64,000 nucleotides of DNA from Buchnera aphidicola (Aphis gossypii). Lineage in GTDB: Bacteria > Pseudomonadota > Gammaproteobacteria > Enterobacterales > Enterobacteriaceae. The notes beneath the pieces are model-generated. The model did not search any database, had not been told where the DNA came from, and saw nothing but the letters and a program-made list of their open reading frames with translations. Both the position numbers and the translations under genes were made by a program. Positions within the stretch are counted from its first letter, which is position 1, and every line of letters begins with the position of its first letter. This document shows positions 22,286 to 58,802 of this stretch, one piece after another. Location: NCBI RefSeq assembly GCF_013394915.1, contig NZ_CP056771.1:372001-436000 (forward strand), in the 5' to 3' direction.

Positions 22286-22948
22286 ATGTCTAACATAATT
22301 TTAGCGATTGATACTTCGATGAATTATTGCTCAGTAGCTGTATATAAAAAAAAAATATATTCGTTATCAGATTACTGTAATAAAGAGCATACTATAAAAA
22401 TATTACCAATGATTAAAAAAATACTATTACTTGCGAAAATAACATTTAAAGACATTAATTATGTAATCTTTTCAAAAGGTCCAGGAAATTTTACTGGAAT
22501 ACGAATTGCTATAGGAGTCGCTCAAAGTTTATCTTTAAGCTTGAATATTCCTATCTTAGGAATTTCTACTCTAGCTATAATGGCAGAAAAAGCCTGGAGG
22601 AAATATCATCAAAAAAAAATATTAGTTGCTATTGCAGCTGGAATTGATAAAATATATTTATCTAAATATATTAAAGATAGTAGATTATTATGGATCGGAA
22701 ATAAAACAGAAGTTCTAATACATTCTGATGACATTAAAGAAGAAACAAAGAATTTGGATAATGATTGGTTTTTCGTCGGTAACGGATTAGAAAAATTTAA
22801 TTCAAAAAATTTTTTTAACTATGAAAAAATAAAAAATATATCGCCTAATGCAAAAGATTTAATTCCATTTTCTTTGTTAAATATAAAAAACAAGAATTTT
22901 TTACATTTTACTAAATTAGAACCTAATTATTTAAATAATATTTTTTAA
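22286..22948 (+). CDS. tsaB: tRNA threonylcarbamoyladenosine synthesis protein TsaB
   Basis: Partner of TsaD, TsaE and TsaC in making t6A at position 37 of ANN-decoding tRNAs. The 220 residues (E. coli YeaZ 231) have the ASKHA fold start ILAIDTSMNYCSVAVY and the conserved SKGPGNFTGIRIAIGVAQSL. The usual deletion relative to TsaD leaves no complete metal site, as is normal for TsaB. An in-frame A10 run lies at 22346-22355. The C-terminus (KLEPNYLNN) resembles the family ending EPVYLRN. It is convergent with minE across a hairpin. Confidence 0.94.
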   Translation: MSNIILAIDTSMNYCSVAVYKKKIYSLSDYCNKEHTIKILPMIKKILLLAKITFKDINYVIFSKGPGNFTGIRIAIGVAQSLSLSLNIPILGISTLAIMAEKAWRKYHQKKILVAIAAGIDKIYLSKYIKDSRLLWIGNKTEVLIHSDDIKEETKNLDNDWFFVGNGLEKFNSKNFFNYEKIKNISPNAKDLIPFSLLNIKNKNFLHFTKLEPNYLNNIF

Positions 22949-29533: not shown

Positions 29534-30580
29534 ATGTCTTCTTTAAAGAAAATAAAAATAATTAAACCTGATGATTGGCACGTTCATCTTAGAGACAAGA
29601 AGATTTTAAAAAAGGTTCTAAGATATACTGAAATGTTTTATCAACGCGCAATAATCATGCCTAATCTTAATAAACCGATTACAAATTGTAAGAGAGCCAT
29701 TGCATACAAACATAGAATTTTACAAGCAACGCAAATCAATCATACTCAATTTGAACCATTAATGACTTGCTATTTAACAAAAGAGACTTCTTTAAAAGAA
29801 TTAAAATATGGTTTCTTACAAAAAATATTTATAGGAGCAAAATTATACCCGAATAAATGTACAACAAATTCAGAAACAGGTATAAATAAAATCAGTGAAA
29901 TTTTTCATATATTGGAATTAATGCAAAAAATAAAAATGCCGTTATTAATCCATGCTGAAGATAATAATGTTGATGTTGATATTTATGATAGAGAAGCAAA
30001 TTTTCTTGAAACCACGCTAATACCATTACGTAAAAAATTTCCAGAATTAAAAATAGTATTAGAACATATTACTACTAAAGAAGCTGTTGCTTATATTGAA
30101 GAAAGCAATCCTTTATATTTAGCAGGTACTATAACACCGCATCATTTAATGTTAAATAGAAATAACATGTTTATCAACGGAATTCAACCTAATCTATATT
30201 GTTTACCTATTTTAAAGAGAAAAAAACATCAAAACGCTTTAAGACAAGCTATATCTAATGGTAGTATGAATTTTTTTTTAGGAAGCGATAGCGCTCCACA
30301 TATTTACAGAAATAAAATTAGTCTATTTGGATGTGCAGGAATATTTAATGCTCCATCATCTTTATTATGCTATATTACTATTTTTGAAGAAATGAAAGCA
30401 TTAAAATATTTTGAATCTTTTTGTTCAAAAAATGGTCCTAATTTCTATAATTTACCAATTAATCAAAACACTATCACATTAATAAAAAAACCTTGTAAAA
30501 TTTTAAAAAAAATAAATCTTGGAAAAGATTCTATCTTACCTTTTTTATCTGGTGAAACATTGAAATGGTCTATTCTTTAA
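29534..30580 (+). CDS. pyrC: Dihydroorotase
   Basis: Zinc enzyme that cyclises carbamoyl aspartate to dihydroorotate in pyrimidine synthesis. The 348 residues equal E. coli. Metal ligands are visible: HVHLRD near residue 16, the carbamylated Lys in FIGAKLYP near 103, His in LIHAEDN and VLEHITT, and the catalytic Asp in GSDSAPH. No good Shine-Dalgarno precedes the ATG. The next enzyme of the pathway, PyrD, is frameshifted at 55574-56586. Confidence 0.97.
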   Translation: MSSLKKIKIIKPDDWHVHLRDKKILKKVLRYTEMFYQRAIIMPNLNKPITNCKRAIAYKHRILQATQINHTQFEPLMTCYLTKETSLKELKYGFLQKIFIGAKLYPNKCTTNSETGINKISEIFHILELMQKIKMPLLIHAEDNNVDVDIYDREANFLETTLIPLRKKFPELKIVLEHITTKEAVAYIEESNPLYLAGTITPHHLMLNRNNMFINGIQPNLYCLPILKRKKHQNALRQAISNGSMNFFLGSDSAPHIYRNKISLFGCAGIFNAPSSLLCYITIFEEMKALKYFESFCSKNGPNFYNLPINQNTITLIKKPCKILKKINLGKDSILPFLSGETLKWSIL

Positions 30581-31074: not shown

Positions 31075-31731
31075 CTATAAAACAACTATTACTTGTCCAT
31101 CATTATTAATTATTCCAGTAATAATTTTCCCACTTTTAATTTGTACACGTATTTTTTCTTTAGCACCGCCATTATCGAGTGCTTTTCCAGTGGTAATAAT
31201 TTCAAAATTATTTCCTTTAAATTTGATAGTAACCTCTTTATTTGATGTGACTATCCAAAAAGCGCGCGTCATAAAAGATGTAATAGGTTGAAAAGGAAGA
31301 ATATCTCGTACATTTACTCTATTGATAACATCTTGTTTATTAAAATAAGTGCCATTAGGTAACTTATCTAAACGTCCTGTTATAGATTTTAGATCTGATG
31401 CGCTTATTTTTGTACCTCGAAAAATTTTTTTCTTTGCTATAATGTACTGCCCTTGAATTTGTAATTCTAATTTTAAAAATTGATGTTGACGCCCACAAAT
31501 GTATAAAATATCAAATAGTCCAACGCTGTGAAAATGATGTGATAATAAAAAATGTTGTTTTTTACAAATTTTATTTTTTTCTAGAGGTGCATGTAATAAT
31601 ATTTTAAAATTTTTTGTATCAAGAGAATATTCTTGTTTAAAAAATTCATTTAAATGATTTGTTAAATCATTAGCATTAATTTCAAAAGACAGAAAAAACA
31701 ATAAAATAAAAAAAAATTTTAATAATTTCAT
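31075..31731 (-). CDS. flgA: Flagellar P-ring assembly chaperone FlgA
   Basis: Periplasmic protein that helps FlgI form the P ring. The 218 residues (E. coli 219) start with a signal peptide (MKLLKFFFILLFFLSFEINA). The SAF-type domain is clear in the second half: ITGRLDKLPNGTYF, RDILPFQPITSFM and the C-terminal GGAKEKIRVQIKSGKIITG. It diverges from flgB, as in E. coli, with a 301-bp spacer. Confidence 0.93.
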   Translation of the reverse strand: MKLLKFFFILLFFLSFEINANDLTNHLNEFFKQEYSLDTKNFKILLHAPLEKNKICKKQHFLLSHHFHSVGLFDILYICGRQHQFLKLELQIQGQYIIAKKKIFRGTKISASDLKSITGRLDKLPNGTYFNKQDVINRVNVRDILPFQPITSFMTRAFWIVTSNKEVTIKFKGNNFEIITTGKALDNGGAKEKIRVQIKSGKIITGIINNDGQVIVVL

Positions 31732-44809: not shown

Positions 44810-45739
44810 ATGTACTTGTTTGCTATGTTATTTCCAGGACAAGGCGTCCAATATATAAATATGTTATCTAGTTTTTTAAAAAAAGAGAAAATTTTTCAAG
44901 ATATTTTCGAAGAAGCGTCAGAATGTCTAGGATATAATTTACTAAAATTGATAAGAGAAGGTCCGTTAGACAAAATAAATCATAGTAAATATACACAACC
45001 AACAATATTAACTGCATCAGTTGCAATTTATAAATTTTGGAGAAAATGTAATGGAATAAATCCATCATTTATGTCTGGCCATAGTTTAGGTGAATATTCT
45101 GCATTAGTTTGTTCTAAAGCTTTAAAGTTTACAGATGCGTTAAAAATTGTTTCTTTGCGCGGAAAATATATGCAAAAAATAATTTTAAATGAATCATATT
45201 TAGTAAAAGCTATAATTGGTTTAAACAAAAAAATCATTAAAAAAATTTGTGATAAATATACATCTAATACTGTTTCTATTGCAAGCATCAACTCAGATAA
45301 TCAAATAATTATTTCAGGAAATAAGTTGGATGTATACCAAGCGAGTTTAGATTGTAAAAAATATGGAGCTAAATTTATTTTTGATGTCAATCTTAACATA
45401 CCAGTGCATAGCTATTTAATGAAACCAGTATCTAAAAAAATTGAAAGTATACTAAAAAACATTAAAATTAAAAAACCTACAATACCTGTTATTAATAATG
45501 TAGATGTAAAATGTGAAAATGATAGTCAAAACATTAAAAAAGCATTAGTAAAACAAGTATATAAAACTGTAAGATGGAAAGAAATAATAGACTTTATACA
45601 ATCAAAAAATATTTTTACCATGCTAGAAGTTGGACCAAATAATATTTTAACTAATTTAAATAAAAATAATGTTAATTTAATTTCTTTTAATACAAGTAAT
45701 AAAAAATGTTTTTTTCATGCTTTTCAACAAATCAACTAA
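44810..45739 (+). CDS. fabD: Malonyl-CoA:ACP transacylase
   Basis: Loads malonate onto acyl carrier protein for fatty-acid synthesis. The 309 residues equal E. coli. FPGQGVQ near the N-terminus, the nucleophile Ser in GHSLGEYSALVCSKAL (around residue 91), a conserved active-site His in the NIPVHSYLM region and the C-terminal EVGPNNILTNL are visible. AAGG lies about 7 bases before the ATG. It starts the run fabD-fabG-acpP-tmk-holB-tatD. Confidence 0.96.
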   Translation: MYLFAMLFPGQGVQYINMLSSFLKKEKIFQDIFEEASECLGYNLLKLIREGPLDKINHSKYTQPTILTASVAIYKFWRKCNGINPSFMSGHSLGEYSALVCSKALKFTDALKIVSLRGKYMQKIILNESYLVKAIIGLNKKIIKKICDKYTSNTVSIASINSDNQIIISGNKLDVYQASLDCKKYGAKFIFDVNLNIPVHSYLMKPVSKKIESILKNIKIKKPTIPVINNVDVKCENDSQNIKKALVKQVYKTVRWKEIIDFIQSKNIFTMLEVGPNNILTNLNKNNVNLISFNTSNKKCFFHAFQQIN

Positions 45740-54110: not shown

Positions 54111-55313
54111 TTATTTTATATTTTTTAAAGGCAAATCAAATGCTTTAAACAACGATTGCATAAACGATTTATCTAAACAAAACATTTTACCAGGACTATC
54201 AGATATTTTTGCTACAGGTTTCCCATTACATTTAACTAGCTTGATTACAATATTTAATGGTTTTACATGTGGAATATCACAAGTTAATTTTGTTCCAATA
54301 CCAAATATAATATTAATTTTCTTATTAAATTTTTTATATAAAGTTATAATTTTTTTAAAATTTAAATTATCCGAAAATAATAAAGTCTTACTAGAAGGAT
54401 CAATGCCTAAACTTTGATAATGGTTTAAAGCTTTTTTAGCCCATTGTATTGGATCGCCTGAATCATGTCTCATTCCTTGATAAGATTTAGATAAAAATAA
54501 ATTAAAATCGCGTAAAAAAGAATCCATTGTAATGCAATCTGTTAAAGCAATTCCTAGATGTTTTTTATATTGACACAACCATATTTTTAAAGCTAACGAT
54601 TGACTATATTTTAAATTAGAACTAATTTGCTGGTGTGCTTGAAACCATTCATGTGCTTGAGTGCCTACTGGAGATAATTTTAAAACACGAGAGATATGAT
54701 AGTTACTGGATCCAACTAAAAAAGGAAATTGTTGCTTCAATCTTTTTACAATAGAATATTGTACATTATACGAAAATCTGCGTCTTGTCCCAAAATCAAT
54801 AATTTTTAAACGAGATAAATCTAAATTTTTAGTATAGTTAAAAAATTTTTTTAATTTTAAGTTTAAATAATCTACCGCAATGTTTGGTGTTACTTCAGGA
54901 TAATTATTTTTGTGAAAAATCTCACTAATTAAAGACAAAATAGGGACTTCCCATAAAATTACTTCTTTCCATAACCCAGCAATTCGAATGCGCAATTGAC
55001 CATAATAATTATTTACTTTGACTTGAGTTATATTATATCGAAAATTTTTTAACCAATGTAAATATTCTTTTTTAAAGAATGGAAACGAATTCATATATAG
55101 ATATTCTTCATGACTTAGAGATAAAGATTCCATCATATTAATTTGATCTAGTAAAGCATGTGAATAAGACCCTAGTATATTAGGACCTCTGCAAATAAAT
55201 TCTGCAACAACATCAACATTTTTATAGAAAAAAAACACTGCTTGTTGCATATGAAGTTTATATGCGTCATTATCGAGTAATGTTTTTACTATTGGATAAT
55301 TATATTTTTTCAT
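54111..55313 (-). CDS. pncB: Nicotinate phosphoribosyltransferase
   Basis: Makes nicotinate mononucleotide from nicotinate and PRPP with ATP, a salvage entry to NAD that depends on an outside nicotinate supply. The 400 residues equal E. coli. [15 protein letters not shown] at the N-terminus, [14 protein letters not shown], the autophosphorylated His in [12 protein letters not shown] and [15 protein letters not shown] are conserved. It diverges from pyrD. Confidence 0.96.
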
Positions 55314-55573: not shown

Positions 55574-56586
55574 ATGTTTTACTATTTAATACGTAAACTT
55601 TTATTTTTAATAGATCCTGAAAAATCGCATACATTAATGTTAAAATGTCTCAACCTTAAACACATAAAAATATTAATAAATTTATTTTTAAAACCCATTC
55701 CATCAGTTCCGATTAAATGTATGGGATTAAAATTTCCTAATAAAGTTGGTTTGGCTGCTGGAATGGATAAAAATGGTGAATATATAGACTTTTTTTCTAA
55801 ACTAGGCTTTGGTTTTATTGAATTAGGAACAGTTACTTTATTGCCTCAAACAGGAAACTTAAAACCAAGAATGTTTCGAATAATTCAATCAGAAGCAATT
55901 ATTAATAATATGGGATTCAATAATCTTGGTATAGAAAATCTTATCTATAATATCAAAAAATCAACATTTAAAGGGATAATCGGAGTTAATATAGGAAAGA
56001 ATAAAAATACTTCTATTAATAATGCAATCAACGACTATTTAATATGTATAGAAAAAATATATTGTTATACTCACTATATAACTATTAATATTTCTTCTCC
56101 CAATACAAAAAATCTAAGAAAGTTACAATATGGAGCATTATTTGAAAATTTACTAAAAAATATTAAAATAAAACAAGAGGAAATGCATAAAAAATATTCT
56201 AAATATGTACCAATAGCTATTAAAATTTCACCAGATTTATTAAAAAATGAAATAATTTATATTGCCAAACAGTTAATTAAATTTAATATAGATGCAGTTA
56301 TCGCAACTAATACAACTACCAATCATTTTTCTATATATAAAAAAATAAAAGGTAAAAAAATTAAAGGAGGTCTCAGTGGCTTACCTTTACAAAAAAAAAG
56401 TAATGATGTAGTTTCAATATTACATCAACAACTTAAAAAAAAATTCCTATAATTGGAGTAGGTGGAATTAATTCTTTAAATGCAGCAAAAGAAAAAATAA
56501 ATTTAGGAGCTGATTTAATACAAATATATTCTGGGCTTATATATCACGGCCCAAAATTTATTAGAAATATAATTAAAAAATTATAA
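55574..56586 (+). pseudogene. pyrD: Dihydroorotate dehydrogenase, frameshifted in an A9 tract
   Basis: Class 2 quinone-linked enzyme that oxidises dihydroorotate at the inner membrane. The first frame runs to a stop at 56450-56452 (292 residues): [10 protein letters not shown], the catalytic Ser in [11 protein letters not shown] and ATNTTTNH are intact. The last part of the protein continues in the next frame from about 56443 to the TAA at 56584-56586, with [16 protein letters not shown] and [15 protein letters not shown], the conserved FMN-phosphate and C-terminal region. One extra A in the A9 run (56435-56443) restores a 337-residue protein (E. coli 336). It may be a recent lesion, a sequencing error, or a gene rescued by polymerase slippage. 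Confidence 0.9.
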
Positions 56587-56705: not shown

Positions 56706-58802
56706 ATGAACTATTTATATGCAAGCACAAATTTAGGATGTGAAAAATTATTAAAAAACGAACTTATTTTTTTAGGAGCAAAAAATTTACATATTATTAA
56801 AGGAGGTATTTATTATGAAGGTGAGGATTTACTATTATACCGAAGTTTAATATGGAGTCGAATTGCTTCTAAGATTTATATATGTATTAAAAAATTTATT
56901 ATTAATAGTAATCATGATTTATATACTAATACTTATCAGATTGATTGGGATAAAATTTTATATTTCAACAATACATTTTTAGTAAAATTTAAAGGAAACA
57001 ACGATATTATTAAAAATAGTTTATTTGGAGCGTTAACTATAAAAAATGCAATTTTAGATCAATTTTATGAAAAATATTCTATATATCCTAATATTAATCT
57101 TATTAATCCTGATATTAGTGTTCAAGCATTATTAACTAACAACAGAATAAATATTATGTTAAATTTATCTGGTAATTCTTTAAGTCAAAGAGGTTACCGA
57201 AAATTTTCAAATATTACATCATTAAAAGAAAACTTAAGCGCAGCAATTGTATTAAGTTCCGCATGGAAAAAAAATATTCCTTTAATAGACCCTATGTGTG
57301 GTTCTGGGACTTTTTTAATTGAAGCAGCTATGATTTACTCTAACAGAGCGCCAGGATTAAAAAGAAATAAGTGGGGTTTTCAATTTTGGAAAGGATATAA
57401 CAATTTTTTATGGAATGAAGTTCTTAATGAAGCAAATAAAAAATTTGAAATGAGCATAAAAAAATGTCATAAAAATTTATTTATTGGATTTGATTATAAT
57501 CAAAAAATTATAGAACAAGCAAAAGAAAATGCATTTAATGCAAACGTATTAGAAATTATTCAATTTTCAAAATCTAATTTAAATAACATTACCAACCCAT
57601 ACAAAAATAAAGAAATGGGAGTATTATTAAGTAATCCACCGTATGAAGAAAAAGAAAATACTGAAAGCGAGCTAGTAGCATTATATATTCAAATTAGTTT
57701 TATGTTTGAAAAACATTTTAAAAATTGGAAACTATCAATATTTACTGCATCAGAATTTTTGTCAAGTTTTTTACAAATACAAGCTTATGAAACATTTTCT
57801 TTTAAAAGTGGTTCATTAAACTGCTTTTTAAAAAATTATAAAATATTGTCAGAAAGACTAAATCATAAAAACAAAGAATATGAAAACAGATTAAAAAAGA
57901 ATATTAAAAAATTAAAAAAATGGAATGACTGGAAAAAAATAGACTGTTTTCGCATATATGATCAAGATATACCAAGTTATAAAATTGTTGTAGATATGTA
58001 CAAAAATTGGTTAGTAATTCAAGAATATCAAGCTCCAAAAGAAATAAACATACATGATTCTTATAAAAGATTATGTCATGCAATTTATTATACAAAAGAA
58101 ATATTATCTATTCCAATTAATAATATAGTATTTAAAACAAGAAAAAAACAAAAAAAAAAATTACAATATCAAAAACTTTTTAATAGCAAAAAATTTTTTA
58201 TAATCCAAGAATATCATGCAAAACTATTAGTAAATTTATTTGATTATGTAGATACTGGATTATTTTTAGAGCATCGACGTGTAAGAAAGCTTATAAGTAC
58301 AATGTCATACGGTAAAGATTTTTTAAATTTATTTGCATATACCGGTAGTGCAACTGTTTTTGCCGGATTAGGAGGTGCCAAAAGTACAACTACTATCGAT
58401 ATATCTAATACATATATACAATGGTCTATGAGAAACATGTCAATTAACAATATCATTGGAATACAACATTCTTTTATTCAATCAAACTGTTTGGAATGGA
58501 TTAGATCAACTTATCAAAAATTTGATTTAATATTTATTAATCCACCAACTTTCTCAAATTCAAAAAAAATGAAACAAGTTTTTGAATTGAAAAAAGATTA
58601 TCTTGACTTATTAAATATTTTAAAAAAAAATTTACGAGAAAATGGCTATATTATTTTTTCAAGTTCTACAAACAATTTTAAATTAAATTTTGATAAAATC
58701 CATCAAATGAAACTATATGTGAAAAATATTACTCATTTAGTGCAATCAAAAGATTTTTTAAATAAAAAATATTACTCCTGGCTAATACAACATATACAAT
58801 GA
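56706..58802 (+). CDS. rlmL: Bifunctional 23S rRNA methyltransferase RlmKL
   Basis: Makes m2G2445 (RlmL half) and m7G2069 (RlmK half) in 23S rRNA in E. coli. The 698 residues (E. coli 702) comprise an N-terminal THUMP domain (about 45-155), a first methyltransferase domain with DPMCGSGTFLIEAAM and LLSNPPYEE, and a second with FLNLFAYTGSATVFAGLGGA and FINPPTFSNS. Both catalytic units look intact. An in-frame A11 run at 58150-58160 is the longest homopolymer noted in a coding region here. Followed by uup, as in E. coli. Confidence 0.95.
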   Translation: MNYLYASTNLGCEKLLKNELIFLGAKNLHIIKGGIYYEGEDLLLYRSLIWSRIASKIYICIKKFIINSNHDLYTNTYQIDWDKILYFNNTFLVKFKGNNDIIKNSLFGALTIKNAILDQFYEKYSIYPNINLINPDISVQALLTNNRINIMLNLSGNSLSQRGYRKFSNITSLKENLSAAIVLSSAWKKNIPLIDPMCGSGTFLIEAAMIYSNRAPGLKRNKWGFQFWKGYNNFLWNEVLNEANKKFEMSIKKCHKNLFIGFDYNQKIIEQAKENAFNANVLEIIQFSKSNLNNITNPYKNKEMGVLLSNPPYEEKENTESELVALYIQISFMFEKHFKNWKLSIFTASEFLSSFLQIQAYETFSFKSGSLNCFLKNYKILSERLNHKNKEYENRLKKNIKKLKKWNDWKKIDCFRIYDQDIPSYKIVVDMYKNWLVIQEYQAPKEINIHDSYKRLCHAIYYTKEILSIPINNIVFKTRKKQKKKLQYQKLFNSKKFFIIQEYHAKLLVNLFDYVDTGLFLEHRRVRKLISTMSYGKDFLNLFAYTGSATVFAGLGGAKSTTTIDISNTYIQWSMRNMSINNIIGIQHSFIQSNCLEWIRSTYQKFDLIFINPPTFSNSKKMKQVFELKKDYLDLLNILKKNLRENGYIIFSSSTNNFKLNFDKIHQMKLYVKNITHLVQSKDFLNKKYYSWLIQHIQ

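Follow-up and report, generated by a model that had tools for sequence, protein, structure and literature searches.

A pyrD gene one base short in two sister Buchnera genomes and its probable rescue by RNA-polymerase slippage

Genes of Buchnera and Blochmannia are reportedly rescued by polymerase slippage at poly(A) tracts, as described by Tamas et al. in 2008, and Wernegreen et al. are said to have found in 2010 that ancient frameshifts are kept in Blochmannia homopolymers. The pyrD gene of Buchnera aphidicola from Aphis gossypii, which we analyzed within a stretch of 64,000 nucleotides (here called the window), resembles the genes described by Tamas et al. in having a single one-base frameshift in an A/T run, an otherwise conserved sequence and an AT-rich insect endosymbiont as its carrier. 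It differs from them in that transcripts were measured there, whereas the evidence on pyrD is purely comparative, and pyrD is not named among those genes in the descriptions contained in the available portions of PMC3017870 and PMC3164680. Like the Blochmannia frameshifts, as characterized in an excerpt of PMC3017870, the pyrD break is shared between species and leaves a gene without detectable decay; unlike them, it belongs to another genus, and Buchnera lineages differ in which of two runs carries the pyrD break. Gene models of the Buchnera of Myzus persicae that were merged over poly(A) indels provide another parallel, since conserved flanks were regarded there as the sign of a working two-frame gene, although pyrD is not named in the accessible text of that work (PMC3890641). 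In Buchnera transcripts, 151 of 157 insertions fell within homopolymers, and their rate increased exponentially as runs lengthened to 11 (PMC5574713, in part), and for frameshifted genes earlier work put the full-length transcripts at ∼30% (PMC3017870, in part).

Slippage rescue is already known in Buchnera, and pyrD, judged from its sequence and that of its relatives, is most likely a new example of it. In full-text searches on Buchnera together with pyrD or dihydroorotate dehydrogenase, we came upon no description of a shared break or of its recurrence in this gene; supplementary tables, which lie outside those searches, may list pyrD. We consider it likely (with a probability of roughly 0.7) that pyrD is a working gene one A short, from which RNA-polymerase slippage would still yield some full-length PyrD. 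RNA polymerase would slip backward on the A9 run, so that a minority of the mRNAs gain one A. These mRNAs would encode a quinone-dependent dihydroorotate dehydrogenase of 337 residues, and the remaining mRNAs would give a 292-residue product minus the C-terminal 47 residues. The cost of the break would probably be less PyrD. An initial annotation of the sequence had raised slippage rescue of the A9 frameshift as a possibility; rescue as such is now the reading best supported by comparison, through the sharing of the break, the constraint, the lack of other damage and the whole pathway, while slippage itself is what we infer. The features concerned are listed in the table.

Features of the window that bear on pyrD (window coordinates)
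Feature	Position	Strand	Remarks
pyrD frame 1	55574..56452	+	ATG at 55574; 292 codons plus stop TAA (56450-56452); residues 1-287 precede the run
A9 run of pyrD	56435..56443	+	lacks one base relative to the frame read in intact relatives; contains the heptamer A_AAA_AAA
pyrD tail, -1 frame	56443..56586	+	47 codons; stop TAA (56584-56586); contains IGVGGI and a second segment of 11 residues
Second A9 run of pyrD	56391..56399	+	in frame here
pyrC match	29549..30574	+	whole (G000:C1:401549-402574)
pncB	54111..55313	-	intact neighbor; source of neutral branch lengths and, with pyrD, of the tree
rlmL (RlmK/RlmL)	56706..58802	+	intact here, decayed in the sister genome G034; control gene

The A9 run, the stop of frame 1 and the extent of the tail were all confirmed in the sequence as first annotated. 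The tail had been assigned to the +1 frame, which proved wrong: its distance from the start codon (56443 - 55574 = 869) leaves a remainder of 2, placing it in the -1 frame with one base missing. Restoring a tenth A does produce the 337 residues that had been predicted, made up of 287 + 3 + 47 with three lysines at the junction. The same protein results from one mRNA base gained or from a -1 ribosomal step. The second A9 run, which is interrupted in G034, was rejected as a rescue site, since one additional base there leads to an immediate stop in the shifted frame.

Of the 336 positions in the NCBIfam profile for quinone-dependent dihydroorotate dehydrogenases (NF003644), the first 292 residues match 1-289; the tail (56443-56583, 47 aa), searched by itself, accounts for 290-335 at an E value of 3e-19. 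Given this match of its own, the tail is real coding sequence and no chance open frame. By itself, the first piece reaches 412 bits versus the NF003644 cutoff of 418, and 326.9 versus 200 for TIGR01036; taken together, the two pieces are identified by the profiles as PyrD, a quinone-dependent (class 2) dihydroorotate dehydrogenase whose quinone activity is predicted. The class 2 N-terminal extension is present, with 75.7% identity of residues 1-37 to the PyrD of G007. The nearest named PyrD proteins belong to the Buchnera of Aphis urticata, A. fabae, A. aurantii and A. helianthi, and the intact protein of the A. fabae symbiont (P0004) aligns from residue 1 with E. coli PyrD (1f76, class 2) over positions 1-334 of 336. 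One continuous frame including the C-terminal part is absent from pyrD here, being broken at the A9 run, so that two frames encode what E. coli encodes in one. The FMN contacts of E. coli PyrD, which we take to lie near residues 297 and 318-319, fall within the tail, and the 292-residue product is for this reason predicted to be inactive. It is highly improbable that this protein is active alone or that the tail forms a separate peptide joining it: continued constraint on the tail would agree with such an arrangement, but the presumed position of the FMN contacts speaks against an active short protein, and in intact relatives and in 1f76 the tail belongs to one chain.

Our comparison covered 36 Buchnera genomes, namely, that of the window (628098 b, single contig) and 35 congeners. 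Comparison of the tract among relatives, as the annotation had suggested, placed the identical A9 run and the identical break in the nearest congener, G034 (89% identity over the first pyrD part). Four other genomes (G022, G010, G007 and G032) have an in-frame stretch of ten bases, uninterrupted in G032 and containing a different base in the other three. In a tree of 32 genomes based on the pncB and pyrD proteins, with the run left out, the window genome and G034 are sisters (support of 100/99), and G022, whose pyrD is intact, joins next (100/97). The A9 state requires one change by parsimony, and we infer a single origin of the break in the common ancestor of the window genome and G034, both of which would have kept it since; separate one-base losses in both lineages are possible, since run lengths change easily. 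The chance of an error of sequencing or assembly, to which homopolymer runs are prone, is next to nothing, given the same A9 run in the DNA of G034 and the 292-aa proteins on several contigs: cluster P0001 (292 aa) is found on 10 contigs, the longest of 628060 b versus 628098 b here, and P0002, a 292-aa protein with 89% identity, comes from a relative's separate contig of 30466 b.

Protein-level constraint on the rest of pyrD, which the annotation had claimed, was upheld by omega tests for both tips, and dN/dS on the two sides of the tract pointed to purifying selection before the run as well as in the tail. With the two tips as foreground, omega before the run (270 of 287 codons) was 0.091, with a background of 0.091 and omega = 1 rejected (2dL = 85); in the tail (47 codons) it was 0.069 versus a background of 0.080, and omega = 1 was again rejected (2dL = 9.8). 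Under free branch lengths, the window genome alone gave an omega of 0.047 (omega = 1 rejected, 2dL = 47.8). A second omega test used neutral branch lengths shared with pncB. Here, both tips together gave an omega of 0.077, with rejection of both omega = 1 (2dL = 224) and omega = 0.15 (2dL = 12.7), and the single tips gave 0.051 for the window genome (2dL = 122 for omega = 1) and 0.118 for G034 (2dL = 48.7). For G034 taken singly, omega = 1 is rejected only with these pncB-shared lengths, and a tail test confined to the G034 branch is without power, its estimate lying at the bound (2dL = 0.03).

Besides the A9 break, no further stops or frameshifts were found in pyrD of either the window genome or G034. 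Neutral simulation with the lengths of the joint fit led us to expect 15.8 stops in the window genome and 13.9 in G034, against none observed in either; with the much shorter lengths of the omega = 1 fit to G034 only, 2.2 stops were expected and the probability of none was 0.105. A decaying pseudogene was thus rejected for the pair, since further lesions are lacking and the joint test of the two tips excludes omega = 1. Read from the sequences, pyrD carries the signs of a slippage-rescued gene, i.e., a single frameshift in an A/T run, its sharing and purifying selection on both sides.

A recent inactivation, perhaps separate in the window genome and in G034, would leave pyrD at the first step of decay, with orotate or dihydroorotate supplied by the aphid. 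We regard this as unlikely. The lability of run lengths (six changes for the T-run state described below) is in its favor, as is the estimate for G034 alone under free branch lengths, where omega is 0.219 and omega = 1 stands (2dL = 3.23). However, it needs two losses at the same run, each within about the last 6% of its branch according to our arithmetic from the rejection of omega = 0.15. The neighboring gene rlmL illustrates what decay looks like at this locus. Whole in the window genome and in G022, it is broken among the three nearest genomes solely in G034. There, its matches comprise six pieces spread over three frames and contain 17 stops, although overlaps may count twice (L004, L049). 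Having died after the split, rlmL shows visible decay; pyrD does not, although its break, if inherited by both genomes from their ancestor, is no younger than the death of rlmL. A break found in two species and adjoining a gene that died after their split is thus a clean comparison.

The state of the pathway across Buchnera bears on both readings. Among the 36 genomes, 21 (including G028) have an intact pyrD and 10 a copy that is one base short; two (G012 and G027) have a decayed copy, and three (G016, G020 and G035) yielded no match. The respective cutoffs are exceeded by pyrF and pyrE in 36/36 genomes, by pyrB in 33/36 and by pyrC in 32/36. In the three genomes without pyrD, pyrC is missing as well, and no pyrB exceeds the cutoff. 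In G012 (L045), decay of pyrD (3 stops) is accompanied by a kept pyrC and by a pyrB match that starts from position 27 in a 290-aa frame; in G027 (L046), pyrC, pyrD and pncB are all decayed, and its 4-kb stretch contains no rlmL match. Loss of pyrC, pyrD and pyrBI has been reported for Buchnera-Ua (PMC3164680, in part). To judge from the 5/36 genomes with decayed or no pyrD, PyrD is dispensable in some hosts, and the persistence of pyrE and pyrF in these genomes is consistent with recent inactivation. That reading is opposed by pyrB and pyrC being whole in 10/10 one-base-short genomes; pyrB, pyrC, pyrE and pyrF are without stops in all ten, including the window genome and G034. In addition, undecayed one-short alleles are twice as numerous as decayed and absent ones (ten versus two plus three), whereas alleles dead on arrival should be in the minority. 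The annotation had anticipated that loss of PyrD would cut the pyrimidine route right after an intact PyrC. An intact PyrC is indeed encoded, but the cut now appears less likely, with the break shared, both of its sides constrained and the other pyrimidine enzymes that were searched found whole.

In the pyrD locus, a slippery A run and a tail in the -1 frame are shared with dnaX-type -1 ribosomal frameshifting. In contrast to the dnaX type, the pyrD heptamer ends in AAA, no downstream structure was found, and the product would be the only full enzyme rather than an alternative one. A ribosomal -1 step on A_AAA_AAA, in which tRNA-Lys re-pairs one base back, would make the 337 residues from unedited mRNA, and the evidence for a working gene fits this scheme equally well. 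It nevertheless seems improbable to us. The fold downstream of the run is no better than that of shuffled sequences (z = -0.05), leaving the heptamer without a folded stimulator on its downstream side; A_AAA_AAA is ranked well below A_AAA_AAG in E. coli in the portion of a review that was available (PMC5009743), and it is RNA slippage that has been measured in such runs in Buchnera, as far as the accessible text of PMC5574713 goes. Slippage of RNA polymerase is the reading that we prefer for the shared break.

The A9 run itself is ordinary, the window holding 48 A/T runs of at least 9 bases, of which 42 lie within open reading frames (ORFs) of at least 100 aa. Seen from G022 (34 ORFs of at least 100 aa) and G010 (35 ORFs), pyrD is the only gene of 40 kb that lies in two frames in the window; in this comparison, stops occurred in two G022 ORFs and one G010 ORF of the minus strand, and two G010 ORFs were without a match of >50% identity. 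We also surveyed 32 genes in 32 genomes over the 40 kb around pyrD, using as queries the window ORFs (for pyrD, the G007 protein), so that the survey is blind to genes broken in the window itself. It excludes G027 and the three pyrD-less genomes, and ∼8 short or missing cells stand outside its count. Clean single frameshifts were found in pyrD (10 genomes), in fabD (9 genomes), in rluC of G017 and in gene 30623- of G022, and this state is thus concentrated in two genes, despite the 42 long runs that ORFs of the window contain. Rows dropped from this clean count were pyrD in G012 (3 stops), 30623- in G003 (6 stops) and rlmL in G017 (N run). Of 29 survey cells with stops, 28 have them ∼13 residues or less from an end, as over-extended matches do. 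The counterpart of window gene 31078-31731 in G005 (31078-, L081) contains five stops at residues 25-38 in an otherwise matching gene. Homopolymeric frameshifts per Buchnera genome have been tabulated as 8 to 18 in 6/8 genomes and as 1 and 3 in the others, in a table whose column heads are not visible in the available version (PMC3164680).

A second class of pyrD breaks concerns a T9-T10 run near codon 40, which is one base short in 8 genomes (G001, G002, G004, G008, G009, G013, G018 and G026; loci L026-L032 and L044). The database pyrD entries of this class are 287-aa proteins starting after the run, and the PyrD records of the pea aphid and A. kondoi symbionts are 287 aa long. In the 33 codons before the run, omega of the T-run tips was 0.121 versus a background of 0.320, and omega = 1 was rejected (2dL = 37); for the lower value of the foreground than of the background (2dL = 5.3) we offer no cause. 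This constraint, as estimated from the sequences, argues against plain initiation at an inner start, provided that the breaks are not recent. On the tree, the T-run state takes six changes, with several weak inner branches.

The other gene concerned, fabD (window 44810-45736, intact here), is frameshifted at an A10-A12 run in 9/32 genomes (within L051-L110). Seven of these breaks are one short and two are one long or two short, and the break in G005 is at a different run. No stops were found in the flanking parts of the nine out-of-frame fabD copies. In pyrD, 10/10 breaks are one short, as are the two other clean cells (rluC and 30623-). An excess of one-short states is compatible with insertions rescuing the frame; DNA replication biased toward deletions would produce the same excess, and we give it little weight.

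It is doubtful, though conceivable, that selection holds pyrD one short, the state recurring at the A9 run near codon 288 and the T9-T10 run near codon 40 and limiting an enzyme linked to respiration to the small amount that suits a host which makes pyrimidines as well. If so, the length of the run would act as a heritable control of expression, with its end point in those other lineages that have lost pyrB, pyrC and pyrD. With the recurrence in pyrD and fabD, whether and why some genes tend to slippage-dependent expression becomes testable. More generally, the metabolism ascribed to such genomes depends on whether one-base-short symbiont genes still work or are on their way out. Protein databases hold the 292-aa form for the clade of the window genome and the 287-aa form for the T-run class, so that part of the enzyme is silently dropped. 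Elsewhere in the window, the genes at 669-1454 and 22286-22945, which occupy one frame each here, lie in two frames each in G034 (L047-L048).
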